Below are positions 17,411 to 36,311 of a stretch of 64,000 nucleotides of DNA, piece by piece. The DNA is taken from NCBI RefSeq assembly GCF_014203425.1, contig NZ_JACHJC010000001.1, positions 4,738,001 through 4,802,000 on the forward strand, in the 5' to 3' direction. The notes under the pieces were generated by a model. That model had not been told where the DNA came from. It ran no database searches and saw only the letters and a program-made list of their open reading frames with translations. The DNA is from Micromonospora echinospora. GTDB taxonomy: Bacteria > Actinomycetota > Actinomycetes > Mycobacteriales > Micromonosporaceae. Made by a program: the position numbers and the translations under genes. Positions within the stretch are counted from its first letter, which is position 1; every line of letters begins with the position of its first letter.

Positions 17411-17445
17411 GGCCCCGCCCCGGCCGTCACGGCCGGGGCGGGGCC
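17411..17445. terminator. Bidirectional hairpin between nrdB and MFS gene
   Basis: Perfect 16-bp stem (GGCCCCGCCCCGGCCG and complement) with loop TCA. The loop is itself the stop codon of the convergent MFS gene, so the hairpin overlaps that gene's 3' end. Confidence 0.85.
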
Positions 17446-18662
17446 GGGCTCTCGCCGGGCAGCGCCGCCGCCCGGACCCGCCCGATCAACGCCACGACGG
17501 CAAGCGCCAGCACGGCCACCACCACGAACGCGGTACGCAGGTCCAGCGCGCCGGCGAGCAGACCGATCACCGGCGCCGCGAGCAGCGCGCCCGGCCACTG
17601 GCCCATCGCCACCACGGAGACGCCCTCGCCGGACGTGAGGCCCGGCTGCTCACCGGCGAAGCCGAGCACCGTCGGGGTCACGCACGCCAGGCCGAACCCG
17701 AGCAGTCCGAAACCGGCCATCACCGCCGCCGGATGGGGGTACGCCACCGGCAGCGCCACGCCGACGGTCGCGACGAGCGCGGACAGCCGGACGAAGCGGA
17801 TCCGCCCGACCCGGCCGGCCAGCCGGTCGCCGAACAGCCGGGCGACGGTCGCGGCCAGCGAGAGACAGGTGTACGTGGCCGCGGCGAGCACCGCCGTGGC
17901 GCCGGCCACCTCGGTCGCGTACAGCGCGCTCCACTGGGCGCCGGCCATCTCGATGAACGAGGCCAGGAAGGCGATCACCGCGAGCAGCAGCAGTTGCGGG
18001 GTGAACCGGTCACGCAGCCGGCGCCGCGCCTCGCCGTCCTTCGTCTCCTGGCGGGGCGTGTCGGGCAGCCAGCGGTGCGTGCCGACCAGCAGCGCGCCCA
18101 GCAGGACACTGGTGACGGCCATCTGCGCCGACGGCGACATCCCGATCGCCGCGGCGCCGGTGCCGCAGAGGCCGCCGACCAGCATGCCGATGCTGAAGCC
18201 CGCGTGGAACGTGGACAGGATGGGCCGCCCGTACCGCTTCTGCACCTCGACCGACTGGGCGTTCATCGGCGTGGCCAGCAGATTCGCCGCGAAGCCCCAG
18301 ACCGCGAGCCCGCCGACCAGCGCCACCACAGTGGTGGACGCGGCCAGCAGCGGCGCGTTGAGCAGGATCAGCGCCGCCCCGGCCAGCGCCAGCCGGCGGG
18401 TGTTGATCCGGCTGATCAGCACCGCCACCACGACCAGGGAGACCAGTTCCCCTGCGTTCGTGGCGATGTTCGCCAGGCCCCAGCCGGTGTTGCCGACCCC
18501 TACCGCGTCGCGGACGTCCGGCACACGGGCCGACCAGCCGCCGATGGCCAGACCCATGATGACGAAGAGCAGCACCACCGACCAGCGGGCCTGTACGGCC
18601 GCGCGTGGCACGGGCGGCGCGGGCGGCTCCGTCGTGTGCTGGTTCGTCGAGGTGTCCGTCAT
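17427..18662 (-). CDS. MFS exporter at the edge of the aminocyclitol cluster
   Basis: A 411-residue major facilitator with about 12 hydrophobic segments. After a 30-residue polar N-terminus the first helix is followed by GGWSARVPDVRDAVG, resembling the loop after helix 1 in drug-efflux-type MFS proteins of the YbjJ-like group. It lies downstream of the condensation-domain gene on the same strand (36-bp gap) and so is the last gene of the divergent arm of the cluster. Likely exports the cluster product or gives self-resistance; this is inferred from position. The stop codon sits in the loop of the shared terminator. Confidence 0.85.
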   Translation of the reverse strand: MTDTSTNQHTTEPPAPPVPRAAVQARWSVVLLFVIMGLAIGGWSARVPDVRDAVGVGNTGWGLANIATNAGELVSLVVVAVLISRINTRRLALAGAALILLNAPLLAASTTVVALVGGLAVWGFAANLLATPMNAQSVEVQKRYGRPILSTFHAGFSIGMLVGGLCGTGAAAIGMSPSAQMAVTSVLLGALLVGTHRWLPDTPRQETKDGEARRRLRDRFTPQLLLLAVIAFLASFIEMAGAQWSALYATEVAGATAVLAAATYTCLSLAATVARLFGDRLAGRVGRIRFVRLSALVATVGVALPVAYPHPAAVMAGFGLLGFGLACVTPTVLGFAGEQPGLTSGEGVSVVAMGQWPGALLAAPVIGLLAGALDLRTAFVVVAVLALAVVALIGRVRAAALPGESPAPPRP

Positions 18663-18698
18663 ATCGTCGTACCTCTCTGGGAGCGGTCCGGTCCTCTC

Positions 18699-20138
18699 CT
18701 ACCCGATCGCGTGGTCGAGGAAGCACGCACCGTCAGGCAGGCGCACCTGCCCCGGGGACATGTCGGGAGTGGTGACGAGTGCCGACACCACAGCGACGTA
18801 GTCGTCGATCAGCCCGCGGACGAGGTCGTCGCCGAAGACGCCCCGGTTGCGGATCACCACGCCCCCGGCCCGGTCGTCGTCCACCACGACGATCGGTGAG
18901 CCCCGCTTCACCCAGACGGGCAGGCACTCGGACGGCACGTCGGCGGCGACCACCGGCGGCGGGGTGCCGGGCGCGGGCCGGGCGGTGATGTCGACCGGCT
19001 CCACCAGCAGGTCCGGGCAGTGCAGCACCGGTGACGCCGACGCGGCGGACTGGAACCAGGCGTCGAACAGGTGGTTGTCCGGCCAGGGCCGGATCGCCGG
19101 GAAGTCGGGGCGGACCGACCGGGCCACCCGGTGGAACGCGGTGGCGTGCGCGACGGCCTCGGCCAGCGAGGCGTGCGCGGCCTCGACCACCGCGCGCATC
19201 GGCGCGTCCGGCTCGACGGTGACCGGCAGGTAGACGTTGTTCGTGAACTGACCGACGAGCCGGCGGGACAGCGGGCTCTCCCGGCCCAGCGTCGTGGTGC
19301 CCAGCACCACCCGGGACCGTCCGGCCCGCCGCGCCAGCAGCACCAGGTACGCGGCGAGCAGCAGCACGTACGGGCTGGTGCGGGCCCGCCGGGCGGCCGG
19401 GCGCAACCGCGCGGTGACCTCGGCCGGGAACGCGAAGCGGGTGGCCACCTCGGCGCTGAGCGCGACGTCCGGCGCCGGTGGCGACGCCGGGAAGAGCTGG
19501 TACGGCTCCACCGGCCGCAGCCGGTCCCGCCAGTACGCGGCCCGGGCGGCGGCGTCGACGCCGTTCCCGGCCTGCTCCGTCTCCTGGAGCGCGGCGAGCG
19601 CGGTGAAGTCCACGCCGAGCGGCGGCTGCGGGTCGGCCGCGCCGAGTCGGGCCGTGTACGCGTGGCACAGGTCCTCCACCACGACCCGGCACGACCAGCC
19701 GTCGGAGACCATGTGGAAGAAGCAGAGCGCGAGCACGTGCTCGGTCGCGGAGAGCCGGACCAGCGCGGCCCGCCACAGCGGCGCCCGGCCGGGGTCGAAC
19801 GCGTCGTTGCGGTGCGCGTACGCGATCCGCTCCACGCGGGCCTGTTGCTCGGCCGGCGGCAGGCCGGACAGGTCGACGTACTCCAGCGGGGACTCCACAT
19901 GCGGCAGGATCCGCACCGCCGGCTCCACGCCGACGCGGTCGAACCGCATCCGCAGCGCGTCGTGCCGGTCCACCACGTCCTGCATCGCCTGCCGCAGCAC
20001 GTCGACCCGAAGCGTGCCCCGCAACCGGCGGAACTCCACCACCACGAGCCGGGCGGCGCCGGGGTGGGCCGGGTCGAGCGCGGTCATGAACTCCCACATC
20101 ATCTGCTGGCCGGGGGCCAGCGGCAGCGTCGTCGCCAC
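18699..20138 (-). CDS. Free-standing NRPS condensation-domain protein
   Basis: A 479-residue single condensation domain without attached adenylation or carrier domains. The N-terminal motif is LPLAPGQQMMWEF and the active-site motif reads FFHMVSDGWS: the catalytic second His and Asp-Gly of HHxxxDG are kept, but the first His is Phe. Later motifs include VGQFTNNVYLPV (C5) and the region around 360-400. Such stand-alone enzymes join a carrier-bound acyl group to an amine or alcohol, so this is a candidate for coupling the acyl unit to the amino-inositol. GTG start at 20,138 with a GAGGGGG ribosome site; 10 bp after the GT2 stop. The upstream frame extension is Arg-rich shadow and was rejected. 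Confidence 0.85.
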   Translation of the reverse strand: MATTLPLAPGQQMMWEFMTALDPAHPGAARLVVVEFRRLRGTLRVDVLRQAMQDVVDRHDALRMRFDRVGVEPAVRILPHVESPLEYVDLSGLPPAEQQARVERIAYAHRNDAFDPGRAPLWRAALVRLSATEHVLALCFFHMVSDGWSCRVVVEDLCHAYTARLGAADPQPPLGVDFTALAALQETEQAGNGVDAAARAAYWRDRLRPVEPYQLFPASPPAPDVALSAEVATRFAFPAEVTARLRPAARRARTSPYVLLLAAYLVLLARRAGRSRVVLGTTTLGRESPLSRRLVGQFTNNVYLPVTVEPDAPMRAVVEAAHASLAEAVAHATAFHRVARSVRPDFPAIRPWPDNHLFDAWFQSAASASPVLHCPDLLVEPVDITARPAPGTPPPVVAADVPSECLPVWVKRGSPIVVVDDDRAGGVVIRNRGVFGDDLVRGLIDDYVAVVSALVTTPDMSPGQVRLPDGACFLDHAIG

Positions 20139-20148: not shown

Positions 20149-21264
20149 TCAGGCCGCCACCGGCGGCGCCGCCACCGGCGGGATCGGCTGGTAGTCCGCC
20201 TCGTCCGGCGCGCGGAAGCCGGTGAAGAGCAGGTCCGGGCGGCCGAGCCGCAGCGAGGTGACGAACGCGGCCCCGTCGAAGAGCGTCTCGATGGCCACGC
20301 AGGCCGCCGACTCGGCCACCGCGCGCGGTCCCCGGTCACCGCCGAGCCGGCCGGGTGTCTTCGCGGCGATCACGGCGACCGCGACGGCCGGCACCGCGAG
20401 CAGGCTGCGTCCCCCGCTGCGCCGAGCGGTCAGCAGCCCGGCCAGCGCGGTCACGGCGAGCGTGCTGGCGGTGTTGAGCACGAACCGGCGCCGATGCGGG
20501 TGGGCCAGGCAGAGCCACTGCTCGGAGCGCCCGTACGTGGTGAACCGGTAGGCGACCGCGCGGAACGTGTCGGCGACGCCGGTGTCGTGGGTGACCACGC
20601 CGTCCGGGTCGGTGAGCAGCACGTAGCCGGCGTCGGTGAGGAGCAGCCCGAGGTGCAGGTCCTCCCCGCCCAGCGGCATCGGGGAATCCTCCGGGAACCC
20701 GCCGACCGCTTCGAAGACCGCGCGCTTCACGGCCATGTTCGCCCCGGCGCCCCAGGACACGCGCTCGTAGTGCAGCGGCCGGGTCAGGTCGCCGAGCAGC
20801 AGGTAGGAGCGGCGCATCACGCGGAAGAACGCGCTGTCGCCGGGCTCCACGAGCACCGGGCCGGTGACGCCGGCGACCTCGTCGCCCGAGGCGCGCAGCC
20901 GGGCCGCGTACCGGGTGATCAGGTCGGCGGGCACCCGGCAGTCGGAGTCGGTGAACAGCACCAGGTCGTGGCGGGCGTGCCGGACGCCCAGGTTACGTTT
21001 GGCCCCGACGTGCCGGGGTCCGCGCACGTAGCGGGCGCCGTACTCGGCGCAGGCCGCGCGGTGGGCGGCGGCCGCGGCGGGCGCCGAGTCGTCGACGACC
21101 ACCACCTCCACCGGCTCCGGGCAGTTCGGGGCGGCGTCGCGCAGGCTGCGCAGCTGGCGGCGCATCTCCGCCACCCGGTCCTTGACCGGGATGACCACGG
21201 AGACGCCGCGCGTGACGGCGTGGGGTTCGGTCGGTTCGCCCACGGGCGATGCGGATCGGCTCAT
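20149..21264 (-). CDS. GT2-family glycosyltransferase, membrane-associated
   Basis: A 371-residue protein. Catalytic GT-A domain about 25-260: VSVVIPVKDRVAEM, VEVVVVDDSAP, GAKRNLGVRHARHDLVLFTDSDCRVP (DxD-type motif) and GGEDLHLGLLLTDAGY. C-terminal hydrophobic segments (about 285-320) suggest membrane attachment. Similarity in layout to the mycofactocin glycosyltransferase MftF group is visible but not decisive. First gene of the divergent arm; its ATG lies 20 nt downstream of one pair of SARP-like repeats, with no clear ribosome site, which suggests a leaderless or very short transcript. Could add a sugar to the cyclitol product; the donor is unknown. Confidence 0.8.
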   Translation of the reverse strand: MSRSASPVGEPTEPHAVTRGVSVVIPVKDRVAEMRRQLRSLRDAAPNCPEPVEVVVVDDSAPAAAAAHRAACAEYGARYVRGPRHVGAKRNLGVRHARHDLVLFTDSDCRVPADLITRYAARLRASGDEVAGVTGPVLVEPGDSAFFRVMRRSYLLLGDLTRPLHYERVSWGAGANMAVKRAVFEAVGGFPEDSPMPLGGEDLHLGLLLTDAGYVLLTDPDGVVTHDTGVADTFRAVAYRFTTYGRSEQWLCLAHPHRRRFVLNTASTLAVTALAGLLTARRSGGRSLLAVPAVAVAVIAAKTPGRLGGDRGPRAVAESAACVAIETLFDGAAFVTSLRLGRPDLLFTGFRAPDEADYQPIPPVAAPPVAA

Positions 21265-21369: not shown

Positions 21370-22644
21370 ATGACGACCTCCATCCCCATCGACCGGCGGC
21401 TCGCCGTGGACGGCGGCCGGCCGGTCCGCCCGCCGGACCGCCCATGGCCACGCTGGCCGACCCCCGCGCCGGACGCCGCCGCCAACCTGACCGCGGTGCT
21501 GACCGGCGGCCGGTGGGCGATCAGCAGCCCGTCCGTCGGCGACGGCGTCCTGTTCGAGCGCCGCTTCGCCGCCGACTTCGCCCGCTACGTCGGCACCCGC
21601 CACTGCGTACCCGTCGACCACGGGTCCAGCGCCCTGGTGGTGGCCCTGGAATCACTCGGCCTCGGCTACGGCGACACAGTGCTCGTACCGGCGCTGACCT
21701 GGACCGCCTCCGCCACCGCCGCGCTGCGCGCCGGCCTGGTTCCGGTGCTCGTCGACGTCGACCGCGACACCGGCTGCGTCGGGCCGGACGACCTCGACCT
21801 GTCCGTGGACCCGCGGGCCGTGGTCGCCGTGCACTGGGCCTCCAACATGGCCGACGTGCCGGCGCTCGACGCGGTCACCCGGCCGCGCGGCATCTCCGTC
21901 GTGGAGGACTGCGCGCAGGCCCACGGCGCCACCTGGCAGGGCCGCCAGGCCGGCTCACTCGGCCGGCTCGGCTGCTTCAGCTTCCAGCACGGCAAGGTCC
22001 TCACCTGCGGTGAGGGCGGGGCCGTCGTCACCGACGACGACACGCTCGCGCCGGTGCTCGAGGAGCTGCGGGCCGATTCGCGCCGCTACCGCGGCGACCG
22101 GACGCCCCCGGGCGAACTGGACCTGGAGGAGAGCGCCGGCGTGCAGGGGGCCAACTTCTGCCTGGACGAGTTCTCCGCCGCCGTGGCCTGCGCGCAACTG
22201 GCCGTCCTGGACGACCAGCACGACGTGCGCAACCACAACTACCGGCTGCTCGCCGACCTGCTCGACGGCGTCGACGGCGTACGGCTGCTGCAACCCGCGC
22301 CGGAGCAGACCCGCATCTCGATCTACGAGGGCACGATCGTCTTCGACGAGCTGCCGGCCGGCCTGGACAACGCCGCGGTGGCCGCCGCGCTCACCGCAGA
22401 GCTGGGCCGGCGGTTTTACTGCACCGACGAGCCGCTGCACCGCAGCCGGCTGCTGCAGCCGTGGACCAAGCCGCTGCTCGCGCCGCTGGCCGAACGCTTC
22501 GCGGCGATCCACCGGGACCGGACGTACCCGAACACCGAATGGCTCGCCGCACACACCGTCCAGACGCACCACAGCACCTTCCTCGGCACCGAGCAGGACA
22601 TGCACGACGTCGCCGCCGCCGTCGCCAAGGTGCTCGCCCGCTGA
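21370..22644 (+). CDS. DegT/DnrJ/StrS PLP aminotransferase (probable inosose aminotransferase)
   Basis: A 424-residue fold-type I aminotransferase of the DegT/DnrJ/EryC1/StrS family, the group that includes scyllo-inosose and 2-deoxy-scyllo-inosose aminotransferases and AHBA synthase. PLP-binding features: DHGSSALVVAL, VVEDCAQAHG (Asp180) and FSFQHGKVLTCGEGG with Lys209 as the Schiff-base lysine. The N-terminus RRLAVDGGRPVR is typical of the aminocyclitol branch. With the MIPS, phosphatase and dehydrogenase genes in the same cluster, the likely reaction is transfer of an amino group from Glu/Gln to an inosose. First gene of the rightward arm, starting 21 nt after a SARP-like repeat pair. Confidence 0.88.
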   Translation: MTTSIPIDRRLAVDGGRPVRPPDRPWPRWPTPAPDAAANLTAVLTGGRWAISSPSVGDGVLFERRFAADFARYVGTRHCVPVDHGSSALVVALESLGLGYGDTVLVPALTWTASATAALRAGLVPVLVDVDRDTGCVGPDDLDLSVDPRAVVAVHWASNMADVPALDAVTRPRGISVVEDCAQAHGATWQGRQAGSLGRLGCFSFQHGKVLTCGEGGAVVTDDDTLAPVLEELRADSRRYRGDRTPPGELDLEESAGVQGANFCLDEFSAAVACAQLAVLDDQHDVRNHNYRLLADLLDGVDGVRLLQPAPEQTRISIYEGTIVFDELPAGLDNAAVAAALTAELGRRFYCTDEPLHRSRLLQPWTKPLLAPLAERFAAIHRDRTYPNTEWLAAHTVQTHHSTFLGTEQDMHDVAAAVAKVLAR

Positions 22645-22683
22645 TCCGCGCCATCGCCGGCGCACCAGAGAAGGGAACTTCCC

Positions 22684-23904
22684 GTGACCGTCACCCATCA
22701 CGAGACCTCGCACGCCTCGACTCCGTCCCCCGACACGGACGCACCCGTCGGCGTGTGGCTCAACGGCGCCCGCGGTTCGGTCGCCACCACGGCGATCACC
22801 GGTCTGCTGGCGCTGCGCGCCGGCATGGCCGACTCGACCGGCTGCGTCACCGACACCGGCATGCTGCGCGACGCGCCGCTGGCGAGCTGGACCGACCTGG
22901 TGGTCGGCGGGCACGACATCGTCGACACGCCGCTGGAGAAGAAGGCCGAGTCGCTCGTCGACTCCGGCGTCATCCCGGCGCCGGTGCTGGCCGCCGTACG
23001 GGGCAGCCTGCCCGAGGTCGAGCAGAACCTGCGCACCGGCTACGACGCGCGTACCGAGACCGGTCCGCTGGCCGAGGTGGTCGAGCGGCTGGCCGGCGAC
23101 ATCGAGGAGTTCCGCGCCCGCAACGGGCTGTCCCGGGTCGTCGTCATCAACGTGTCCTCGACCGAGCCGCCGGCCGACCACCGGCCCGAGCACGACGACC
23201 TGGACGCGCTGACCCGCGCCCTGGCCGACCCGGACGACAAGGCGCTGCCGGCCAGCTCGGTGGTCGCGTACGCGGCGTTCCGGGCCGGCTGCGGCTTCGT
23301 CGACTTCACCCCGTCCACCGGGGCCCGGCTGCCCGCGCTGGAGATGCTGGCGCAGCGGGAGCGGGTGCCGTTCGCCGGCTCCGACGGCAAGACCGGGGAG
23401 ACGCTGCTGCGCACCGCCCTGGCGCCGATGTTCACCAGCCGCGCCCTGCATGTGCTCTCCTGGGCCGGGGTGAACCTGCTCGGCGGCGGTGACGGCGCGA
23501 CGCTGGAGGACCCGCGCAACGCCCGCAGCAAGCTCAGCTCGAAGTCGGGTGTGCTGCCCGCGCTGCTCGGTGAGGACGTCACCGCCCCGCTGCACATCGA
23601 CAACGTGCCGGACCTCGGCGACCACAAGACCGCCTGGGACCACGTGTCGTTCGAGGGCTTCCTCGGCGTCCGGATGTCCATGCAGCTCACCTGGAGCGGG
23701 GTGGACTCCACGCTGGCCGCCCCGCTCGTGCTCGACCTGGCCCGGCTGACCGCCGCGGCGCACCGCGCCGGACACGTCGGCCCGATCGAGGAGCTGGGGT
23801 TCTTCTTCAAGGACCCGATCGGCACCGACGAGCACGCGCTGGCCGAGCAGGCGCACGCGCTCGCCGCCTGGGCCAACGGGCTGGACGGCCGCGGCGACAG
23901 CTGA
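22684..23904 (+). CDS. Inositol-3-phosphate synthase (myo-inositol-1-phosphate synthase family)
   Basis: A 406-residue enzyme that converts glucose-6-phosphate to inositol phosphate with bound NAD. The dinucleotide-binding region is VGVWLNGARGSVATTAITGL. The central family signature is GSDGKTGETLLRTALAPMF, with later NLLGGGDGATLEDPRNARSKLSSKSGVL and SMQLTWSGVDSTLAAPLVLDL. It is longer than, and different from, the short housekeeping mycobacterial Ino1 type, and resembles copies found in secondary-metabolite clusters. It would provide the first committed step of cyclitol formation here. Co-directional, 39 bp after the aminotransferase. Confidence 0.9.
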   Translation: MTVTHHETSHASTPSPDTDAPVGVWLNGARGSVATTAITGLLALRAGMADSTGCVTDTGMLRDAPLASWTDLVVGGHDIVDTPLEKKAESLVDSGVIPAPVLAAVRGSLPEVEQNLRTGYDARTETGPLAEVVERLAGDIEEFRARNGLSRVVVINVSSTEPPADHRPEHDDLDALTRALADPDDKALPASSVVAYAAFRAGCGFVDFTPSTGARLPALEMLAQRERVPFAGSDGKTGETLLRTALAPMFTSRALHVLSWAGVNLLGGGDGATLEDPRNARSKLSSKSGVLPALLGEDVTAPLHIDNVPDLGDHKTAWDHVSFEGFLGVRMSMQLTWSGVDSTLAAPLVLDLARLTAAAHRAGHVGPIEELGFFFKDPIGTDEHALAEQAHALAAWANGLDGRGDS

Positions 23905-23982: not shown

Positions 23983-25227
23983 ATGTCCCCACACGTCCCG
24001 AACGCGCCGGACCGGCCGAGCACGGATCCGGTGTGGACGCCGATCCTGACCGGTCTGCACGCGACCGCGCTGGACTGTCTCCAGACGAGCTTCGCCCTGC
24101 TCGCCGACTACGCCAACGGGTCCGGCAGCCACCTCGCCCTCGGCGCCCGGTACGGGTTCCGCACCCGGGATCAGGACGCTCTGATCTCCGTCGAGGCGAC
24201 CTCGGACGACCGGGCCGCCGAAGCGGTAGACCTGCTGGGCCTGCGGGTCGAGGGCCGGTGGATGCAGCTCGACGGCCCGCAGGTCCGCCGGCTGTGCGCC
24301 CCGGGCCAGCCGCTCTACGTCACGGCCGACGCGTACGACCTGCCGTGGTGTCCCTACCACGGGCACGAGCACATGCGGCACAGCTTCCTCGTCACCGACG
24401 CCGGGCCGGATCAGGTCACAGTGGTCGACGCCTACCAGAACGACACCGCCTGGGGCCCCGCGCGTCCCGGCGTGTGGCGGCTGCCCACCGCCGCGTTCGA
24501 CGCGGCGCTGGCCGGGGGCGCGCACACGCTGGCGGTGACGGCACACCCGGCGCCGGCGATCGACGTACCCGCCATGCTCGCCGGCAACGCCGCCCGGGCC
24601 CGGCGGGCTCGCCCGGAGATCGCCCGCTACCTGGACCGCACCGGCGCCGCCCTGGACACCGTGGCCGGGCTGCACCGCTTCGTGCTCGACGTCTGGCTGC
24701 TGGCGCGCGCACGCGACCTGCACGAACGCTGGCTGGCCGCGGTCCGGCCCGAGGCCGTCGCCGCGCTGGCCGGGCAGGCAGCCCGCTGGCAGCAGCTCGC
24801 CACGCGCAGCTACGTGGCGCTGCGGCGGGCCCAGGCGGGCCGGCCGGCCGCGCCGGAGCTGGTGGACGCGCTCGGCACGCTGATCTCCGACCACCTCGCC
24901 GCGCTGGAGTCGATCGCCGAACCGGCCGCCATGCCCGGCCACGACGCCGTGCCGGCCGCGCCGGACCCGGCAGGCGGGGACGGCGTACGCGCGGCGGTGC
25001 TCGGCGCGCTGGGCGACACCCTGGACCTGGACGGCTCGACGCTGCGCACCACCGACGTGCTCCGGGAGCTTCCCGGCTTCGACTCGTTCCGGCTGGTCGA
25101 CGTCATCGACCGGGTCGAGCGGCGGCTCGGCGTCGAGGTTCCGGCCACCGCGCTCTCCGCGGCCGACCTGCGCGACGTCGGCTCCCTGTGCGCCATGTTC
25201 GGCGCCGCCACCGGAGGTGCCCGATGA
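23983..25227 (+). CDS. BtrH-like acyltransferase fused to an acyl carrier domain
   Basis: A 414-residue two-part protein. Residues about 1-310 resemble the BtrH family (BtrH_N plus the following helical domain): an N-terminal Cys in TALDCLQTSFALLADY and a His/Asp pair around HEHMRHSFLVTDAG and TVVDAYQND suggest a cysteine-protease-like fold. In butirosin biosynthesis BtrH moves the acyl side chain from its carrier protein to the aminoglycoside. Residues about 325-405 form a carrier domain with GFDSFRLVDVI, Ser368 being the probable phosphopantetheine site. A fusion of the two would tether donor and transferase. ATGA overlap with the following AMP ligase. Confidence 0.78.
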   Translation: MSPHVPNAPDRPSTDPVWTPILTGLHATALDCLQTSFALLADYANGSGSHLALGARYGFRTRDQDALISVEATSDDRAAEAVDLLGLRVEGRWMQLDGPQVRRLCAPGQPLYVTADAYDLPWCPYHGHEHMRHSFLVTDAGPDQVTVVDAYQNDTAWGPARPGVWRLPTAAFDAALAGGAHTLAVTAHPAPAIDVPAMLAGNAARARRARPEIARYLDRTGAALDTVAGLHRFVLDVWLLARARDLHERWLAAVRPEAVAALAGQAARWQQLATRSYVALRRAQAGRPAAPELVDALGTLISDHLAALESIAEPAAMPGHDAVPAAPDPAGGDGVRAAVLGALGDTLDLDGSTLRTTDVLRELPGFDSFRLVDVIDRVERRLGVEVPATALSAADLRDVGSLCAMFGAATGGAR

Positions 25228-27967: not shown

Positions 27968-28222
27968 ATGAACGCCGAATTCACCGAGCTGCTCCGGCCG
28001 TTCCTCAAGTTCGCCGGCCCGGACGAGATCACCGAGGACGCCCGGCTGCGCGACCTCGGCCTGGACTCCATGCGCGAGATCGAGCTGCTCTTCGCCATTG
28101 AGGAGACGTTCGGGGTCGCTGTGCCCGACGACAAGCTGGTCGACTCCACGTTCGCCACCGCCGGCGGGCTGTGGGGCGTGGTCGAGGAGCTGCGCACGCC
28201 GGTGGGCGGTGGTTCCCGATGA
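27968..28222 (+). CDS. Free acyl/peptidyl carrier protein
   Basis: An 84-residue carrier protein. The phosphopantetheine site is Ser34 in DLGLDSMREIELLFAIEE, a four-helix pattern of normal length, acidic overall. Ribosome site GAAGAAAGG precedes the ATG. Located between the decarboxylase and two acyl-CoA-dehydrogenase-fold genes and overlapping the first of these by ATGA, it is the probable platform on which the acyl unit is made and modified, like BtrI in butirosin biosynthesis. Confidence 0.92.
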   Translation: MNAEFTELLRPFLKFAGPDEITEDARLRDLGLDSMREIELLFAIEETFGVAVPDDKLVDSTFATAGGLWGVVEELRTPVGGGSR

Positions 28223-29379: not shown

Positions 29380-30484
29380 GCCGACACCGACACCGACGCC
29401 GGCCGGGGACCACGCCGCCCCGGTGGGCGCCGCGCTGTCCGGAGTGGACCCCACCGACCCGGGTGCGGTGTGGCGCGCGCTGGGCGCCGCCGGGATCGTC
29501 GAGGCGCTCTACGGCGACGGCGTCCAGCCCGACCCCCGGCGGCTGTCGGCCCTGCTCACCGAACTGGACGCCCGGTGCCCGCTCGGCGTGACGCTGTCGG
29601 TCTGCGTCCAGGTCGCCACGGTGCTGCCGCTGCTGGCCGGCGCGACCGGGCCGGCGGAGCGCGCGCGGCGCGGGATGCTGCGCGGCGAGACCGTGGTGGC
29701 GCTGGCCGTCACCGACGCCGCCGGGTCGGGCTCGGACCTGCTCGACGCCGCGACCCGGGTGAAGCTGGGCGACGACGGCGCGGTCCTGGACGGGGGCAAG
29801 GACTGGATCACGAACGCGACGAGCTGTGACGCGGCGCTGGTGCTGGCCCGGCACCGCGAGGCGCGGCACTTCACCAGCTTCTGCTGGGTGCTGGTGCCGG
29901 CCGACGCGCCCGGCGTGACAGTCGGATCCGCCGGCCGGGCGTTCGCCGGGTCCGGCGTGGGCCACCTGCGCTTCGCCGGCGTGGCGCTCGGCCCGGACGC
30001 CGTGCTGGGCCGCCCCGGCCGGGCGCTGGCCGGGTTCGCCCGGCAGGTCGGCGTCGAACGGGTCGCCGGGGCGCTGTGGGCCCGGGCGATGTGCCACCGG
30101 ATGCTGACGGGCCTGCGCGACTGGCTGCGGCGGCGGCCGGCCGGGGCGGGCACGCTGTGGGACCGCCCCGCGGTCCGCGAGCGGTACGCCCGGTGCCTGG
30201 TCGCCGTGCACCAACTCGACGCGCTGTGCGCGCCGCTGCTGGACGCGCCGGCGGCCGTCCCGTCCGCGGTCGCCGGGATGCTGCTGAAGGTCAGCGCCGC
30301 CGAGACCGTGGACCGGGTCGCCGCCGAGGCGGTGCGCCTGCGCGGCGCGGACGCGTTCCGCGACGGCGGGGAGGCTCAGCTGCGCACCGAGGCGGCCATG
30401 TTCGGCATCGCCGGTGGAGCAACCGGAGCGATGCTCGCCGGCATCGCCGACCACGCCGACGAGCTGGCCGGCGCGGTGACCTGA
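29372..30484 (+). CDS. Acyl-CoA-dehydrogenase-fold flavoprotein 2
   Basis: A 370-residue ACAD-like protein, somewhat short and divergent. The beta-domain motif is AVTDAAGSGSDL (TEPxAGSD equivalent), then GGKDWITNATSCDAALVLAR and, near the C-terminus, MFGIAGGATGAML where YEGT would be expected, so the canonical catalytic Glu is again missing. Start taken as TTG, overlapping the end of the preceding gene by 8 bp with a G-rich ribosome site; no better start exists in frame before the homologous region. Likely forms a pair or hetero-oligomer with the preceding protein. A hairpin follows the stop. Confidence 0.8.
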   Translation: MPEPTPTPTPAGDHAAPVGAALSGVDPTDPGAVWRALGAAGIVEALYGDGVQPDPRRLSALLTELDARCPLGVTLSVCVQVATVLPLLAGATGPAERARRGMLRGETVVALAVTDAAGSGSDLLDAATRVKLGDDGAVLDGGKDWITNATSCDAALVLARHREARHFTSFCWVLVPADAPGVTVGSAGRAFAGSGVGHLRFAGVALGPDAVLGRPGRALAGFARQVGVERVAGALWARAMCHRMLTGLRDWLRRRPAGAGTLWDRPAVRERYARCLVAVHQLDALCAPLLDAPAAVPSAVAGMLLKVSAAETVDRVAAEAVRLRGADAFRDGGEAQLRTEAAMFGIAGGATGAMLAGIADHADELAGAVT

Positions 30485-30550: not shown

Positions 30551-32044
30551 GTGAGTCTCTACCAGTGGTTCGAGCGAACCGTGGCGCGGGTGCCGGAGGC
30601 GGTCGCGCTGGAGGTCGGCGGGGAGTCGGTGACCTACCGCCGGCTGCGCGACCTCGCCGACGGCCTCGCCGGCCGGATCCACGCCGAGGTGGGCCGACGC
30701 CCCCGCGCGGTCGGCCTGCTGGCCGCCCGCAGCCTGCCCGCGTACGCCGGCTATCTGGCCGCGCTGCGCGCCGGAGCGGTGGTGGTGCCGCTCAACCCGG
30801 CCTTCCCGCCGGCCCGCACCGCCCGGCTGTGCCGGGACGCGGGGGTGGACGCGCTGGTGGTCGACGACGCCGGCGCCGCGACGGCGGCGCAGGTCGCGGG
30901 CGGCGCCGTGACGGTACGCCTCGACGGCGCACCGGGCGTCCCGCCGCCGACCGCCCCGGTGGCGCCGGACGACGTGGCGTACCTGCTGTTCACCTCCGGG
31001 TCGACCGGGCGGCCCAAGGGCGTGCCGATCCGGCACCGCAACGTCGACGCGTTCCTCACGTACTGCCGGGACCGCTACCCCGTCGGCCCGGGCGACCGGC
31101 TGTCGCAGACCTTCGACCTGACCTTCGACCCGTCCGTCTTCGACTTGTTCGTCGCCTGGGGCGGCGGCGCCACGCTCGTGGTGCCGCAGCCCGACGAGGT
31201 GCTGACGCCGGTGCGGTTCGTCAACGAACGACGGATCACGCACTGGTTCTCGGTGCCCTCGGTGGTCTCGCTGGCCCGCCGGATGCGGATGCTCTCTCCC
31301 GGCGCCATGCCGAGCCTGCGGCACAGCCTCTTCGCCGGCGAGGCGCTGACGCTGGAGCAGGCGCGGGCGTGGGCCGCGGCGGCGCCGGGCAGCGGGGTGG
31401 AGAACCTCTACGGGCCCACCGAGCTGACCGTGACCTGCACCGGTCACCGGCTGCCGGCGGATCCGGCGGCCTGGCCGGCCACCTCGAACGGCACCGTGCC
31501 GATCGGTGACGCGCACCCCGGGCTCGACGCGATCCTGCGCGGCGAGGACGGCACCGTCGGCGGTGACGACGGCGAGCTGTGCGTGCACGGGCCGCAGCGG
31601 TTCGACGGCTACCTCGACCCGGCCGACGACGAGGACCGGTTCGTCACGTACGCCGGTCACCGGTACTACCGCACCGGGGACCGGGTCCGCCGCGAGCACG
31701 GCACGCTCGTGCACCACGGCCGCCTGGACGACCAGGTCAAGCTGCGCGGCTACCGGATCGAGCTCGGCGAGATCGAAATGGTCCTGCGCGGCCACCCGGG
31801 GGTGCAGGACGCGGTGGTGCTGGCGTTCGGCGCGGGCGACGACGTCGCCCTGCGAGCCGTCTACACCGGCGCCGCCGGGATCACCGCCGAGTTGACCCGC
31901 CGGTGCGCGGACCGGCTGCCCGGCTACATGGTGCCGGCCCGGATCCACCACGTGGCCGCGCTTCCCACGAACGCCAACGGCAAGACCGACCGACGCCGGA
32001 CCGCCGACCTGGTCGGCAGCGCGACGAGAGGAGAACGACGATGA
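30551..32044 (+). CDS. Amino-acid adenylation enzyme 2 (NRPS A-domain type)
   Basis: A 497-residue free-standing adenylation domain closer to NRPS A-domains and D-alanine-carrier ligases than enzyme 1. Motifs: LLFTSGSTGRPKG (A3), FDLTFDPSVFDLF (A4 region, with an Asp at the position that usually binds the amino group), NLYGPTELTV (A5), YYRTGDRVRR (A7), GRLDDQVKLRGYRIELGEIE (A8) and LPTNANGKTDRR (A10). No carrier domain is attached, so it must load a carrier in trans. GTG start with AAGGGAGC upstream. It overlaps the flavin reductase gene by ATGA. Confidence 0.9.
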   Translation: MSLYQWFERTVARVPEAVALEVGGESVTYRRLRDLADGLAGRIHAEVGRRPRAVGLLAARSLPAYAGYLAALRAGAVVVPLNPAFPPARTARLCRDAGVDALVVDDAGAATAAQVAGGAVTVRLDGAPGVPPPTAPVAPDDVAYLLFTSGSTGRPKGVPIRHRNVDAFLTYCRDRYPVGPGDRLSQTFDLTFDPSVFDLFVAWGGGATLVVPQPDEVLTPVRFVNERRITHWFSVPSVVSLARRMRMLSPGAMPSLRHSLFAGEALTLEQARAWAAAAPGSGVENLYGPTELTVTCTGHRLPADPAAWPATSNGTVPIGDAHPGLDAILRGEDGTVGGDDGELCVHGPQRFDGYLDPADDEDRFVTYAGHRYYRTGDRVRREHGTLVHHGRLDDQVKLRGYRIELGEIEMVLRGHPGVQDAVVLAFGAGDDVALRAVYTGAAGITAELTRRCADRLPGYMVPARIHHVAALPTNANGKTDRRRTADLVGSATRGERR

Positions 32045-32574
32045 CCGGGACAGGAAACGGACACGAGCAGGAAGGGGCGTTCCGTTCGGTGGCCGGGCGG
32101 TTCGCCACCGGAGTGGCGGTGGCGACGGCCGTCGGACCCGACGGCCCGGTGGGCATGACGGTGAACTCCTTCACCACCGTGTCGCTGTCGCCCCGGATGC
32201 TGCTGGTCTGCCTGCGGCGGGACTGCCGGCTGCTCGGCGCGGTCCGGCGTACCGGGCGCTTCGCGGTGACAGTGCTCGCCGACGACCAGCGCGCGGAGGC
32301 GGCCTGGTTCGCCAGCCGGGGACGGCCCAGCGGCGCCGACGGCTTCACCGGCGTCACCTACGACGCGGAGCGGGCGACCGGCTGCCCGCGCCTGACCGAC
32401 GGGGTGGCGTACTTCGGCTGCGAGGCCGTCTCCGCCGACCCGGCCGGTGACCACGCCGTGCTGATCGGCGCGGTCCGCTCCGCCGGCCTGCTCCGGCCGA
32501 CCCCGCCGCTGCTGTTCGTGGACGGCCACTACGCGCGGGTCGCCGCACCGGCGGAAGCGCAGGTGGCGCGATGA
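32041..32574 (+). CDS. Flavin reductase (two-component monooxygenase partner)
   Basis: A 177-residue protein of the flavin reductase-like domain family: RSVAGRFATGVAVATAVG, GMTVNSFTTVSLSPRMLLVCL and the closing GHYARV motif are typical of NAD(P)H:FMN/FAD reductases that supply reduced flavin to separate monooxygenases. No luciferase-type or other classic monooxygenase is present in the cluster. The two ACAD-fold proteins are the only evident flavin partners, which supports an oxygenase reading for one of them. In butirosin biosynthesis the comparable pair is BtrV with BtrO. Overlaps both neighbours by 4 bp. Confidence 0.88.
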   Translation: MTGTGNGHEQEGAFRSVAGRFATGVAVATAVGPDGPVGMTVNSFTTVSLSPRMLLVCLRRDCRLLGAVRRTGRFAVTVLADDQRAEAAWFASRGRPSGADGFTGVTYDAERATGCPRLTDGVAYFGCEAVSADPAGDHAVLIGAVRSAGLLRPTPPLLFVDGHYARVAAPAEAQVAR

Positions 32575-33416
32575 GCATCGGCGCCGCTCCCGGGGACCTG
32601 CGCTACCTGAGCCTGCGCGCCGCGCGGGCCGGGGCGGACGCGATCCGCGAGGCGCGGAGCCAGGGCTTCCGGACCATGCACAAGGGCGGGGCGGCACAGG
32701 ACCCGGTGACCACCGCCGACCACGCCAGCGAACGGGCCATCCTCGACCTGCTCGCCCGCGACCGGCCGCAGGACGCCGTCCTGGCCGAGGAGTCCGGACT
32801 CAGCGCCGGCTGCTCCGGCCTGCGCTGGATCGTCGACCCGCTCGACGGCACGCTGAACTTCAGCCACGGGGCGAGCCGCTACGCGGTGAGCATCGCGGTG
32901 GCGACCGGCTGCGACGACGGCGACGGCCAGGTGGTCGCCGCCACCATCCTGCAACCGGCCACCGGCGCCTGCCTGGTGCTCGACGGCGACGGCGCGCTCG
33001 ACGGCGACGTCCCGGTCACCGTCGACCGGGAGGCCGCGCCGGGGCACGCCCTGGTGGCGTTCGCGGTGCCGAACGCGCCCGGGCCGCGGCGGCGGGCGTA
33101 CCAGTCGCTCGTCGGCGTCGCGCCCCTCGTCGCCGACCTGCGCAACTCCGGCTCCACGGTCTGCGACCTGGCGGCGGTGGCCCGGGGGGAACTGGACGCG
33201 TTCGTCAGCTTCGACCCCGCGCCGTGGGACGTCGCGGCCGGCACCGCGCTGGTCGAGGCCGCCGGCGGGGTGAGCCGGCGGTGGCGCCACGACGGGCTGG
33301 CGGTCCTGGCCACCGGCGCGCCGGCCGTCGTGGACGCGCTGGCCGGCTGGCTGAGCCCCGACCGTACGAACGGCGCCGACGAGAAGAAGGGAACCGACGA
33401 TGACAGGCAGCGATGA
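32571..33416 (+). CDS. Inositol monophosphatase family protein
   Basis: A 281-residue Mg-dependent phosphatase. The metal sites are readable: EES (LAEESGLSAG), WIVDPLDGTLNFSHG and, near the C-terminus, PWDVAAGTALVEAAGG. It would remove phosphate from inositol-1-phosphate made by the synthase at 22,684, giving free myo-inositol for the dehydrogenase encoded next. It overlaps the dehydrogenase gene by 17 bp, so the two steps are translationally linked. An N-terminal extension with TADHASERAILDLL is normal for the family. Confidence 0.92.
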   Translation: MSIGAAPGDLRYLSLRAARAGADAIREARSQGFRTMHKGGAAQDPVTTADHASERAILDLLARDRPQDAVLAEESGLSAGCSGLRWIVDPLDGTLNFSHGASRYAVSIAVATGCDDGDGQVVAATILQPATGACLVLDGDGALDGDVPVTVDREAAPGHALVAFAVPNAPGPRRRAYQSLVGVAPLVADLRNSGSTVCDLAAVARGELDAFVSFDPAPWDVAAGTALVEAAGGVSRRWRHDGLAVLATGAPAVVDALAGWLSPDRTNGADEKKGTDDDRQR

Positions 33417-34356
33417 GTTCCGGCTGGCACTTGTGGGAGCGGGCCGGATGGGCCGCCACCACCTGCGGGCCCTGGCCGACCACCGGACGGTCCGGATCCG
33501 GCACGTCGTCGACCCGGTTCCGGCGGCACGGGCGGAGGCCGCCGCGGCCGGGCTGCCCGCGTACCCGAGCGTGGCGGACCTGCTCGCGGACGCCGTGCCG
33601 GACGGTCTCCTGGTGACCGCGCCCACCGGCCGGCACGGCGAGCTGGTCGCGGCCGCCGCCGAGGCCGGGCTGCCGGTGCTGTGCGAGAAGCCGGCCGGGC
33701 TCGACCCGGCCGAGGCGGCGGAGGCGGGGCGGGTGGCCGCCGCCGCCGGGATCCCGTTCCAGGTCGCCTACTGGCGGCGGTTCGTCCCGCAGCTGCGCCG
33801 GCTGCGCGAGCGGATCGCCGGCGGCGCGCTCGGCGAGGTCCTGTTCGTGGCCGCGTCGCAGTGGGACGGCGAGCCGCCGGCGGCGGCGTTCCGCACCGGC
33901 AGCGGCGGGATCTTCGTGGACATGGGCGTGCACGAGTTCGACCAGATCCGGTGGCTGACCGGGCAGGACATCGACCGGGTCGCCGCGCAGCCGGCCGGTC
34001 CGGTCACCGACCCGGCGGTACGCGGCCGGGACGTGGACAGCGCGCAGGCGTTGCTCGGCCTGTCCGGCGGCGGTACCGCGCTGGTCTCGCTCGGCCGGCA
34101 CCACCGGGGCGGCGACATGGCGACGGTGGAGGTGTTCGGCACCCGGGACCACGAGCGGCTGACCTTCCTCGACCCGGCCGACGGGGACGCCACCATGTAC
34201 GCGGCCCTGGCGCGCCAGGCGGAGGACTTCGCCGAGCTGGTCCGCGCGGGCCGGTCGGCGGGCGCCGGGGTGGCGGACGCGGTGGCGGTGCTCGACGCGG
34301 CGCACCGGGCGACCGCGCAACTCACCCGGGGTCACGAATTACACACCGTTCGGTGA
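33400..34356 (+). CDS. Gfo/Idh/MocA oxidoreductase (probable inositol 2-dehydrogenase type)
   Basis: A 318-residue NAD(P)-dependent dehydrogenase. Rossmann motif LALVGAGRMGRHHLRAL, catalytic-lysine motif CEKPAGLDP, and the C-terminal substrate region GGIFVDMGVHEFDQIRWLTG with the His that serves as general acid/base in inositol dehydrogenases. It would oxidise one hydroxyl of myo-inositol to an inosose, the substrate of the aminotransferase at 21,370. Which carbon is oxidised, and so which inosamine isomer results, cannot be read from the sequence. Last enzyme gene before the regulator. Confidence 0.9.
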   Translation: MTGSDEFRLALVGAGRMGRHHLRALADHRTVRIRHVVDPVPAARAEAAAAGLPAYPSVADLLADAVPDGLLVTAPTGRHGELVAAAAEAGLPVLCEKPAGLDPAEAAEAGRVAAAAGIPFQVAYWRRFVPQLRRLRERIAGGALGEVLFVAASQWDGEPPAAAFRTGSGGIFVDMGVHEFDQIRWLTGQDIDRVAAQPAGPVTDPAVRGRDVDSAQALLGLSGGGTALVSLGRHHRGGDMATVEVFGTRDHERLTFLDPADGDATMYAALARQAEDFAELVRAGRSAGAGVADAVAVLDAAHRATAQLTRGHELHTVR

Positions 34357-34410: not shown

Positions 34411-34434
34411 CCGTACACCACACTGTGGACGGTA
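34411..34434. promoter_or_regulatory. Inverted repeat upstream of the SARP gene
   Basis: CCACA-C-TGTGG (34,418-34,428) is a perfect short palindrome, flanked on both sides by GTAC. It lies about 30-47 bp before the SARP ATG and may be an operator for a regulator of the regulator. No matching copy is seen elsewhere in the cluster. Confidence 0.35.
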
Positions 34435-34457
34435 CTGCGGAGCGGGGGAATACATCG

Positions 34458-36311
34458 ATGCGATTCAGTGTCCTCGGTCCGCTGGCCCTCCACGTGGACG
34501 ATCGCCCGGTCACGCTCACCGGCACCAAGCCCCGCCTCCTGCTCGCCGTGCTGCTGCTGAGCCCGGGGCGCACGGTCGCCACCTCCCGGCTGGTCGACGG
34601 CCTGTGGCCGGACTCGCCGCCCGCGTCGGCGGTACGCAACCTGCGGACGTACGTACACCGGCTGCGGCAGGCGCTGGACCGCGGCGGCGACTCGGCCGAC
34701 CGGCTGGTCCACGACGGCACCGGCTACCACCTGCGGGTCGACGAGGACGAGCTGGACCTGCTGCGGTTCCGGCGTCTCACCGACGAGGCCCGCCGGGCCG
34801 CGCGGGGGGACCGGCCGGAGGCCGCCGCCGAGCTGTTCGACCGGGCGGTCGAGCTGTGGGGCGGGCACCCGCTGGAGGACCTGGCGGATCCGGGCACCGA
34901 CCTGGGCGCGAACGTCACGGCGCTGCGGGAGCAGCACCGGGAGATCACGACCGAGCTGTTCGACCTGCGCCTGCGACTGGGGCAGCCGGCCCGGGTCATC
35001 CCGTCGCTGCGCCGGATGGTGGCCGAGGAGCCGCTCGACGAACGCTGGCAGGCGCAGCTGGTGACCGCGCTGACGCTGGAGGGGCGTGTGGCCGAGGCGC
35101 TGGCCGTGTACCAGCAGGCCCGGCGCGGCATCGTCGACGAGCTCGGCGTCGACCCCGGTCCCACCCTCCAGGGCGCCCTCCAGGCCGCGCTGGACGGGGA
35201 CTCCGCCGAGGTCCGGCCACCGTCCGGCTGGCCGGCGGCCCTCGGCGCCGGGCCCGCGGCGCCGCCCGGCCCGCCGCCGAGCCCGCAGGCCCTGCCGATG
35301 AAGCCGCCGTCCCTGGTCGGCCGGGACACCACGGCCAGCCAGCTCCGCACCATCGCCGAGGGGATCGCCGACCCGGCCGGCACCGACGAGCACGCCGGGG
35401 TCGTGCTCGTCTCCGGCGCGCCGGGCGTCGGCAAGTCGTCGTTCTCCGTGTCCAGCGGGTACGACCTGGCCGACCTCTTTCCCGACGGTCAGCTCTTCGT
35501 CAGCTTCGACAGCAGCGACGAGCCACCCCGCGGCAGCGGGGAACTGATCAGGGAGCTGCTCGTCGAGCTGGGTGTACCGCTGGCCGGCGTGTCCGAGGAC
35601 ATCCGGGAGCGCTCCGCCGCGCTGCGGTGCGCGCTCGCCGGCCGGCGGCTGCTGCTCATCATCGACGACGTCGACTGCGCGCAGCAGGTGCGCCCGCTGC
35701 TGCCGGGGGCGGGCCGCAGCCTGGTGCTGATCAACAGCCGGCAGCGCCTGCTGGACCTGGACGTCGGCTGGCGGTTGACGCTCGGCGCGCTCGACCGTGC
35801 CGACGCGGTGGAGCTGCTGGCCACGATCGCCGGTGAGCGCCGGGTACGTGAGCAACCGGAGGTGTTCGGCCGGATCGCCGCGGCCTGCGACCGGCTGCCA
35901 CTGGCGCTGCGGATCGTCGGCAGCCGGCTCGTCACCCAGCCCGACGTCGCCCTGCCCGGCTTCGCCGCGCACCTGGAGGACGAGGAGAACCGGCTGTCCG
36001 AGCTGGCCGTCGGGGACATCTCGGTGCGCGGCAGCCTCTCGGTCAGCTACCAGGCGCTGGACGTCGACGCCCGCCGGGCGCTGCGCGCGCTGGCCCGCGC
36101 CGGCTCGTTCATCACCCCGGCCAGCGCGGTGGAGATCCTGCGCCTGCCCCGGCAGCAGGCCAACCGGATGGTGGAGCACCTGGTCCAGCACAATCTGCTG
36201 CTGCCCGTCGACTCGGACGATCCGGGCCAGCACTTCCACCTGCCGGAGCTGCTGCGGCTCTTCGCCCGCGAGTGTGTGGACGCGCACGGCCGCCCGCTGC
36301 CGGCCACCTGA
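34458..36311 (+). CDS. SARP/AfsR-type transcriptional activator with NB-ARC domain
   Basis: A 617-residue pathway regulator. Winged-helix DNA-binding domain about 1-95 (FSVLGPLALHVDDRPVTLTG, VRNLRTYVHRLRQAL), bacterial transcriptional activation domain about 96-245 (ending RRGIVDELGVDPGPTLQ), then an ATPase domain from about 285 with Walker A SGAPGVGKSS near residue 320 and LLLIIDDVD as Walker B. It lacks the C-terminal tetratricopeptide region of full AfsR. SARPs activate biosynthetic operons by binding heptamer direct repeats near -35, and matching repeats occur at 21,285-21,348. It is the last gene of the cluster and is followed by a terminator. Confidence 0.93.
   Translation: MRFSVLGPLALHVDDRPVTLTGTKPRLLLAVLLLSPGRTVATSRLVDGLWPDSPPASAVRNLRTYVHRLRQALDRGGDSADRLVHDGTGYHLRVDEDELDLLRFRRLTDEARRAARGDRPEAAAELFDRAVELWGGHPLEDLADPGTDLGANVTALREQHREITTELFDLRLRLGQPARVIPSLRRMVAEEPLDERWQAQLVTALTLEGRVAEALAVYQQARRGIVDELGVDPGPTLQGALQAALDGDSAEVRPPSGWPAALGAGPAAPPGPPPSPQALPMKPPSLVGRDTTASQLRTIAEGIADPAGTDEHAGVVLVSGAPGVGKSSFSVSSGYDLADLFPDGQLFVSFDSSDEPPRGSGELIRELLVELGVPLAGVSEDIRERSAALRCALAGRRLLLIIDDVDCAQQVRPLLPGAGRSLVLINSRQRLLDLDVGWRLTLGALDRADAVELLATIAGERRVREQPEVFGRIAAACDRLPLALRIVGSRLVTQPDVALPGFAAHLEDEENRLSELAVGDISVRGSLSVSYQALDVDARRALRALARAGSFITPASAVEILRLPRQQANRMVEHLVQHNLLLPVDSDDPGQHFHLPELLRLFARECVDAHGRPLPAT

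Follow-up and report, generated by a model that had tools for sequence, protein, structure and literature searches.

Butirosin carries a 4-amino-2-hydroxybutyrate (AHBA) side chain on an aminocyclitol-type acceptor, and its biosynthesis involves BtrK, BtrH and BtrI together with the ATP-grasp ligase BtrJ and the luciferase-like hydroxylase BtrO. The aminocyclitol of hygromycin A is proposed, in the available text of PMC10949010, to begin with a myo-inositol-1-phosphate synthase (MIPS), a phosphatase, a Gfo dehydrogenase and an aminotransferase (Hyg18, Hyg25, Hyg17 and Hyg8), and Hyg17 was demonstrated there to be a myo-inositol dehydrogenase. In a 64,000-nucleotide stretch of the Micromonospora echinospora genome, hereafter the window, we analysed a cluster of 16 genes (positions 17427-36311) in which these four enzyme types share an operon with a cassette of carrier genes. 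Its product most likely belongs to a class of inosamine amides with an aspartate-derived beta-aminoacyl chain; judged from sequence comparison, this chain would most likely be aminoacyl-(dehydro)-beta-alanyl and the molecule probably glycosylated.

Comparable carrier chemistry has been described in two other settings. Vicenistatin and fluvirucin biosynthesis (VinN, VinL, VinO, VinM; PMC11284099) resembles the cluster by its VinN-like and VinM-like adenylation enzymes, its acyl carrier protein (ACP) and its decarboxylase; according to the text available, VinM activates alanine, serine and glycine and caps the beta-aminoacyl-ACP. The cluster has a BtrH-like protein with a fused carrier instead, and Pfam found no polyketide synthase, VinK-type acyltransferase or amidohydrolase among its 16 genes. 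Bolagladin biosynthesis (BolO, BolC, BolN, BolQ; PMC7756342) shares the VinN-like aspartate ligase, the free ACP, the BtrK-like decarboxylase and a desaturase of the acyl-CoA dehydrogenase (ACAD) type. From what is accessible of that source, production was lost when bolN was deleted, and a bolQ deletion yielded dihydro-bolagladins, so this route to dehydro-beta-alanine has published genetic support. The bolagladin unit feeds a lipodepsipeptide nonribosomal peptide synthetase, whereas the cluster adds an inosamine route, the BtrH-carrier protein, a second ACAD, a VinM-like ligase (AMP2) and a flavin reductase. Dehydro-beta-alanine is also found in the olenamidonins, relatives of the enamidonins, as stated in the available part of PMC11204786.

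On the aminocyclitol side, the acyl part of hygromycin A is a cinnamic acid, whereas that of the cluster would be a carrier-bound beta-amino acid; the Pfam scan of the 16 genes found no methyltransferase to match Hyg6, which serves the methylenedioxy group of hygromycin A. The nearest described aminocyclitol derivatives found are the nabscessins of Nocardia abscessus, which in the accessible text of PMC11364655 carry 3-hydroxybenzoic and 6-methylsalicylic moieties, aryl acids unlike the acyl unit proposed here, and for which a 2-deoxy-scyllo-inosose synthase route is proposed. No match to such a synthase (dehydroquinate-synthase fold) was found among the 16 genes, unlike in the 2-deoxystreptamine aminoglycosides, and the cluster would use the MIPS route where butirosin relies on 2-deoxystreptamine. 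We found no described cluster or product pairing an inosamine with a carrier-bound beta-amino acid in the open-access papers searched.

Inositol and carrier genes in one conserved operon

Fifty-two genes were called in the window by means of a codon model that had learned from the same sequence; gene families were assigned by Pfam and NCBIfam scans, and motifs were located by script. The 16 cluster genes are listed in Table 1. Three of them, for the major facilitator superfamily (MFS) exporter, the condensation (C) enzyme and the family 2 glycosyltransferase (GT2), lie on the minus strand. The 13 others form a plus-strand block from 21370 to 36311, in the order aminotransferase, MIPS, BtrH-like protein with carrier, AMP1, decarboxylase, ACP, ACAD1, ACAD2, AMP2, flavin reductase, phosphatase, Gfo dehydrogenase and SARP regulator, with several neighbours overlapping or nearly abutting (25224/25227, 26716/26723, 27963/27968, 28219/28222, 32041/32044, 32571/32574 and 33400/33416). 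Every gene class named in the initial annotation of this DNA was found in the interval, the BtrH match lying below the Pfam cut-off.

Twelve relatives of the locus were fetched, 11 from Micromonospora and one from Dactylosporangium (L156), seven of them strains that also supply loci L004-L009 and L046 of the decarboxylase scan described below. Each of the 16 genes was matched in all 12, and the cluster is real and compact, not a chance assembly. From aminotransferase to SARP, the plus-strand genes keep one and the same order throughout, save for a phosphopantetheinyl transferase (PPTase) gene, not in the window, inserted between ACAD2 and AMP2 in three relatives. The minus-strand block is divergent in 11 of the 12 and inverted in Dactylosporangium. 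In one draft genome (L149, on the same contig as L046) the decarboxylase is matched over no more than 57% in a single frame, which suggests a frame break or a sequencing error. The expectation that a single operon unites the inositol and carrier genes was thus borne out in every relative.

The distribution of the cluster is patchy. Among 160 genus genomes, 12, that of the window included, have a MIPS at least 84% identical to the cluster's, and the next best reaches 59%. Matches to its GT2 (E 1e-60) were found in 25 of 354 family genomes: 13 lie at 76% and above, and the other 12, called distant GT2 loci below, at 45-51%. Named strains with the cluster are M. chalcea, M. tulbaghiae, M. marina, M. 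humi, M. phaseoli and D. sucinum. The window itself sits in a one-contig genome of 7.13 Mb, and its nearest loci are from Micromonospora.

The complete set for a route from glucose-6-phosphate to an inosamine in the hygromycin A style is present as initially claimed, the phosphatase, Gfo dehydrogenase and StrS-type aminotransferase sharing one operon with MIPS. The three top solved relatives of the aminotransferase are 2-deoxy-scyllo-inosose aminotransferases (5w70, 5w71 and 2c7t; 295, 285 and 282 bits). The best solved match of MIPS is 1u1i (220 bits), and the lysines of the aligned 1u1i active-site segments, presumably the catalytic ones, are kept. Against the IolG model TIGR04380 (cut-off 355), the Gfo dehydrogenase reaches 183.5 bits when read from 33400, probably its start rather than 33448. 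Archaeal-like MIPS is not restricted to the cluster: the genome encodes a second one (6076740-6077870, L157; 56% identical) beside UbiA, Gfo and permease genes, and paralogs at 54-59% identity occur in 126 of the 160 genus genomes (E 1e-80).

Turning to the carrier half, AMP1 matches 3wvn (titled 'Non-ribosomal peptide synthetase'), which we take to be VinN, with 400 bits. The isoaspartyl-binding residues of VinN named in the available text of PMC7756342 (Asp230, Ser299 and Arg331) have the equivalents D, T and R in all 68 rows of the AMP1 alignment, serine being replaced by threonine and row L001 repeating the window sequence. These residues suggest that AMP1 is probably of the VinN-like isoaspartyl type and the acyl unit of the aspartate/beta-alanine type, not of the glutamate/gamma-aminobutyrate type. 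The decarboxylase, whose closest solved relative is BtrK (2j66, 176.6 bits), is accompanied by a free ACP as first noted. The butirosin-like carrier chemistry of the initial annotation stands for these two proteins and, judging by fold, may extend to the BtrH-like protein; a butirosin-type ligation was rejected, since the ligase is VinN-like and belongs to the AMP-binding family, and Pfam found neither an ATP-grasp nor a luciferase-like (PF00296) match among the 16 genes, unlike in butirosin.

The second ligase, AMP2, has the pocket code DPFFLALVTK. One of its two best solved matches, 6akd, is presumably IdnL7; the other, 8k4r, equals AMP2 at 7 of 10 pocket positions compared by eye (the differences are Asp/Cys, Pro/Cys and Leu/Phe), or at 8 of 10 if the 8k4r cysteine is a mutated aspartate. 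We infer that 8k4r is VinM, because a cysteine at the conserved aspartate of AMP2 fits the 'VinM cysteine mutant' used for cross-linking in the accessible text of PMC11284099. With such a VinM/IdnL7-like enzyme, the chain would probably be an aminoacyl-beta-alanine.

Table 1. Genes of the cluster, with positions in the window and basis of assignment
Feature	Coordinates	Strand	Basis
MFS exporter	17427..18662	-	PF07690 E 2.9e-21; in 12/12 relatives
Free-standing condensation (C) enzyme, proposed inosamine N-acyltransferase	18699..20138	-	PF00668 E 4.5e-46
GT2, MftF-like, proposed to act on aminocyclitol	20149..21243	-	PF00535
DegT/StrS aminotransferase, proposed inosose to inosamine	21370..22644	+	PF01041; pyridoxal phosphate Lys in HGKVL
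MIPS, archaeal-like type	22684..23904	+	PF07994/PF01658
BtrH-fold papain-like acyl transferase with fused carrier domain (DSF)	23983..25227	+	C32, H133, D149
AMP1, VinN/BolO-like ligase, proposed aspartate loading onto ACP	25224..26723	+	AMP-binding family
Aminoacyl-ACP decarboxylase, BtrK/VinO family	26716..27963	+	PF02784
Free ACP (GLDSM)	27968..28222	+	PF00550 and motif
ACAD1, acyl-CoA dehydrogenase fold; possible flavin monooxygenase or partner subunit	28219..29379	+	Pfam
ACAD2, acyl-CoA dehydrogenase family, proposed thioester desaturase	29372..30484 (start may be 29423)	+	Pfam
AMP2, VinM/IdnL7-like amino-acid ligase	30551..32044	+	best solved matches 8k4r, 6akd
Flavin reductase, HsaB-like	32041..32574	+	PF01613; NF045630 114 bits, cut-off 230
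Inositol monophosphatase	32571..33416	+	PF00459 E 1.5e-44
Gfo/Idh/MocA dehydrogenase, IolG-like inositol dehydrogenase	33400..34356	+	Pfam; GAGRMG at N-terminus
SARP/AfsR-type regulator (BTAD and NB-ARC)	34458..36311	+	PF03704, PF00931

Proposed pathway, oxidation and chain transfer

In the pathway that we propose, MIPS, the phosphatase and the Gfo dehydrogenase would convert glucose-6-phosphate into an inosose, to be aminated by the StrS-type enzyme to scyllo- or neo-inosamine, according to the hydroxyl that is oxidised. AMP1 would attach L-aspartate through its beta-carboxyl to the free ACP, and the BtrK/VinO-type decarboxylase would strip the alpha-carboxyl to leave beta-alanyl-ACP. The beta-amino group may then be capped by AMP2 with a small amino acid of the alanine, serine or glycine class, in a VinM-like manner, after which ACAD2 would desaturate the capped thioester to dehydro-beta-alanine, with ACAD1 and the flavin reductase performing a second oxidation or ACAD1 serving as a partner subunit. 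The BtrH-fold enzyme would shift the chain from the ACP onto its own fused carrier, an equivalent of VinK in vicenistatin, and the free-standing C enzyme would acylate the inosamine nitrogen. GT2 would finally glycosylate the ring, the MFS protein export the product, and the SARP regulator switch the cluster on. Gene content, key residues and conservation are what the sequences show; from them we infer each reaction, the order of the steps from capping onwards and the product, and we consider it somewhat more probable than not that the cluster makes an inosamine amide by these steps. The capping residue, the desaturation, the glycosylation and the identity of the amide-forming enzyme are held less firmly than the product class. 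An inosamine N-acylated with a small decarboxylated amino acid and possibly glycosylated, as initially predicted, survives in outline, the acyl unit now being read as probably of the aspartate/beta-alanine type and aminoacyl-capped.

The desaturation step is assigned to ACAD2 on account of E212 (counted from the start at 29423), which is invariant in 37 of 37 rows where the short-chain dehydrogenase has glycine. We take this to be the base position of the long-chain and isovaleryl-CoA dehydrogenase (LCAD/IVD) type, and the title of a solved medium-chain dehydrogenase (MCAD) mutant, T255E/E376G, fits this reading. The best NCBIfam match of ACAD2 is RedW, a prolyl-carrier protein dehydrogenase, at 64 bits against a cut-off of 650. 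By analogy with bolagladin, the two ACADs point to dehydro-beta-alanine.

ACAD1 opens the way to a butirosin-like oxidation, in which this protein and the flavin reductase would hydroxylate the carrier-bound beta-alanine, instead of or after desaturation, to give an isoserine-type or N-hydroxy acyl unit. In alignments ACAD1 lacks a glutamate at both usual base positions, its top Foldseek match is FMN-bound DszC, and its sequence matches include DszC entries as well as 3m9v and 4kcf, which we take to be KijD3. A flavin reductase lies within the operon, and among the 44 loci that hold the core of the carrier cassette (see below) it accompanies five of the six without an ACAD2 match, the sixth (L018) being on a cut contig. 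However, it was not found in 18 of the 38 core loci with both ACADs, some of these stretches being cut, and the bolagladin precedent favours desaturation. The ACAD1 model (pLDDT 91.6) has a plain ACAD fold, a plain acyl-CoA dehydrogenase follows DszC in Foldseek at nearly the same E-value, and VIA-align ranks acyl-CoA dehydrogenases at least as high as DszC, so that the modelled fold would fit a dehydrogenase and a monooxygenase about equally. Hydroxylation by ACAD1 is in our view unlikely, though it is the strongest competitor to the scheme proposed.

Transfer of the chain involves two candidate enzymes. The BtrH assignment rests on a fold match, as PF14399 (BtrH_N) gives 16.8 bits, below the Pfam cut-off of 29.7. 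The papain-like fold and the Cys-His-Asp triad relate the protein to AziU3, CtaG and CcbD, at about 10-23% identity and with the difference that the cluster's transferase carries a fused carrier. The titles of the solved CtaG variants C11A, H128A and D144N suggest a triad of the same kind. These three proteins were reached by fold comparison only; a profile search with the BtrH-carrier protein against solved structures returned nothing but carrier proteins, aligned at the carrier end, among the best 60 of its 101 matches. The fusion is found in at least 37 of the 44 loci having the carrier cassette. The C enzyme has the motif FHMVSDG, which retains the second histidine and the DG of HHxxxDG, presumably the condensation-domain motif, and its best solved relative is 4znm, a 'C-domain type II peptide synthetase'. 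Five of the 12 distant GT2 loci have a relative that matches it over 90% of its length, in L169 inside a longer protein.

The BtrH-like protein could itself acylate the inosamine in the manner of CcbD, which we take to couple a carrier-bound acid to an amino sugar, leaving another condensation to the C enzyme. Against this, the BtrH-like protein is present in at least 37 core loci without the inositol block, and L162, L163 and L168 combine a relative of the C enzyme with GT2 and a cyclase, no BtrH match being found in the stretches fetched. From this distribution the C enzyme appears the likelier inosamine N-acyltransferase, and direct acylation by the BtrH-like protein ranks as improbable, slightly more so than hydroxylation by ACAD1. 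The BtrH-like protein of the initial annotation is supported by its fold, with a role that probably lies elsewhere than in acylating the inosamine.

The two halves of the cluster in other genomes

A decarboxylase scan across genomes, in which the best 80 loci were kept, gene presence was judged by thresholds of our own and some stretches ended at contig ends, found the core of the carrier cassette (BtrH-like protein, AMP1, decarboxylase, ACP and ACAD1) in 44 of the 80 loci listed. These 44 include ACAD2 in 38, AMP2 in 36, the PPTase in 30 and the flavin reductase in 25. The inositol block is present in seven of the 80, and in the other 73 neither aminotransferase, MIPS, phosphatase, Gfo dehydrogenase nor GT2 rose over threshold. 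The core stands without inositol genes in at least 37 other loci (within L010-L083), nearly all from actinomycetes. One of these, L012, encodes thioesterase, SDR, ALDH-like, carrier, PALP and C-T-TE proteins and a second BtrH-like protein, below cut-off; the remaining ones were compared through similarity clusters only.

The other half has a distribution of its own. At 10 of the 12 distant GT2 loci a cyclitol synthase lies near GT2, in one of them only with an adjoining stretch (L170). It is a dehydroquinate-synthase-family cyclase within the same 20-kb stretch in eight, the same in L170 for a ninth (G255), and MIPS in G185; the GT2 stretches L158 and L159 hold neither. Five of the cyclases are nearest to AroB in NCBIfam, under cut-off, that of L166 being the only one scanned with Pfam; the neighbouring aminotransferase suggests that the cyclases beside distant GT2s are 2-deoxy-scyllo-inosose synthases. 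This aminotransferase is 62-69% identical to the window's in six of the 12 loci, whereas G193 and G267 carry it away from GT2 and G334, G335, G185 and G231 gave no match (seven genomes searched, E 1e-60). L161, L165, L166 and L167 each combine two GT2s, a StrS aminotransferase, a dehydroquinate-synthase-type cyclase and an MFS protein, and their stretches gave no carrier matches.

Three genomes reunite parts of the two halves. G255 holds a cyclase and an aminotransferase with GT2, the C enzyme, AMP2, flavin reductase, both ACADs, ACP, PPTase, MFS and a BtrH-like protein, and no cassette-type decarboxylase (the best, at 34%, is located elsewhere). In G334 a cyclase, GT2 and the C enzyme stand together with the decarboxylase, AMP1 and ACP, and in G185 MIPS and GT2 with the decarboxylase, AMP1, ACPs and ACAD1. 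A tree was built from 64 decarboxylase rows, excluding the frame-broken L046. It groups the seven rows from loci with inositol genes (the window and L004-L009), together with a duplicate of the window sequence, in a single clade (99/97) nested in a clade of 44 rows (100/99), and places the decarboxylases of G334 and G185 in a different clade of 13 rows (100/99). By this gene, carrier decarboxylation and cyclitol/GT2 genes thus appear to have been joined on two or more occasions, one of them involving the full inosamine route, which tells against an accidental neighbourhood. One row labelled Burkholderia multivorans (L050) falls among the actinomycete rows of the tree, perhaps through contamination or transfer.

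That the inosamine and beta-aminoacyl pathways are unrelated and merely adjacent could be argued from the carrier cassettes without inositol genes and from the aminotransferase/GT2/cyclase sets without carrier matches (L161, L165-L167). Yet in the cluster the genes are interleaved, aminotransferase and MIPS preceding and phosphatase and Gfo dehydrogenase following the carrier genes; the plus-strand order is constant in all 12 relatives apart from the PPTase insertion, and the reunions in G255, G334 and G185 add to the case, so that this explanation seems very improbable. Least probable of all is that the product serves as a conjugate at the cell surface or in redox metabolism, akin to mycothiol or a glycolipid, and is no secreted molecule of the antibiotic type: GT2 resembles MftF of mycofactocin glycosylation (TIGR03965, 120 bits, cut-off 280) and mycothiol has a similar inositol/amine/amino-acid make-up, but the SARP regulator, the MFS exporter, the antibiotic-type carrier logic and the presence in only 12 of 160 genus genomes speak otherwise.

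Several findings nevertheless weigh against the inosamine amide proposed here. Besides the missing base of ACAD1 and the weak BtrH_N match, the IolG and aminotransferase-family NCBIfam matches fall under curated cut-offs. The aspartate assignment rests on residues, and another dicarboxylic amino acid may serve. Neither the window nor nine of the 12 relatives has the PPTase gene of the cassette. Because no deprotecting amidohydrolase was found among the 16 genes, the product may retain the residue added by AMP2, or else this enzyme may serve to load the BtrH carrier. Two of the three reunited loci (G334 and G185) lack a close aminotransferase, making the acceptor of GT2 there uncertain; the BtrH-like protein of G255 spans 70% of its counterpart in the window and apparently lacks the carrier; and the G185 row sits on a long branch, its position in the tree being unsure.

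With these reservations we advance, tentatively and as a possibility short of even chances, that the cluster is one member of a modular and so far unrecognised family making aminocyclitol-(dehydro)-beta-peptides in Micromonosporaceae. A common tool-kit of StrS aminotransferase, GT2 and C enzyme, fed by MIPS or by a dehydroquinate-synthase-type cyclase, would be coupled to beta-amino acids on carriers by a BtrH-fold dipeptidyl transferase that bears a carrier of its own, giving enamide-acylated (aminoacyl-dehydro-beta-alanyl) inosamines. If the proposed pathway is true, inositol-derived aminocyclitols and aspartate-derived (dehydro-)beta-alanine carrier chemistry, known apart, would be united in one small cluster, and its occurrence in named strains would make a new compound class directly testable. 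It would also suggest a role for the carrier-fused BtrH-fold protein.

Borders and neighbouring genes

The left flank is occupied by ribonucleotide reductase (13990-17405). It was rejected as a cluster component because only six of the 12 relatives show the small subunit in their short flank (less than about 1 kb). On the right, past 36375, the first gene has no Pfam match and the second encodes a GDSL lipase. These genes were rejected likewise: the first adjoins the cluster in nine of the 12 fetched stretches and is unmatched in L008 and L009, both of which extend beyond the SARP gene.

Further away, a hydroxamate siderophore set of the desferrioxamine-like type lies at 45280-57543, with a pyridoxal phosphate-dependent decarboxylase, a lysine/ornithine oxygenase, an Acetyltransf_8 protein, an IucA/IucC synthetase, a FecCD transporter and an adjoining penicillin amidase. 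At 1005-6464, a single chain of 1819 residues combines biotin carboxylase, biotinyl and carboxyl transferase domains.

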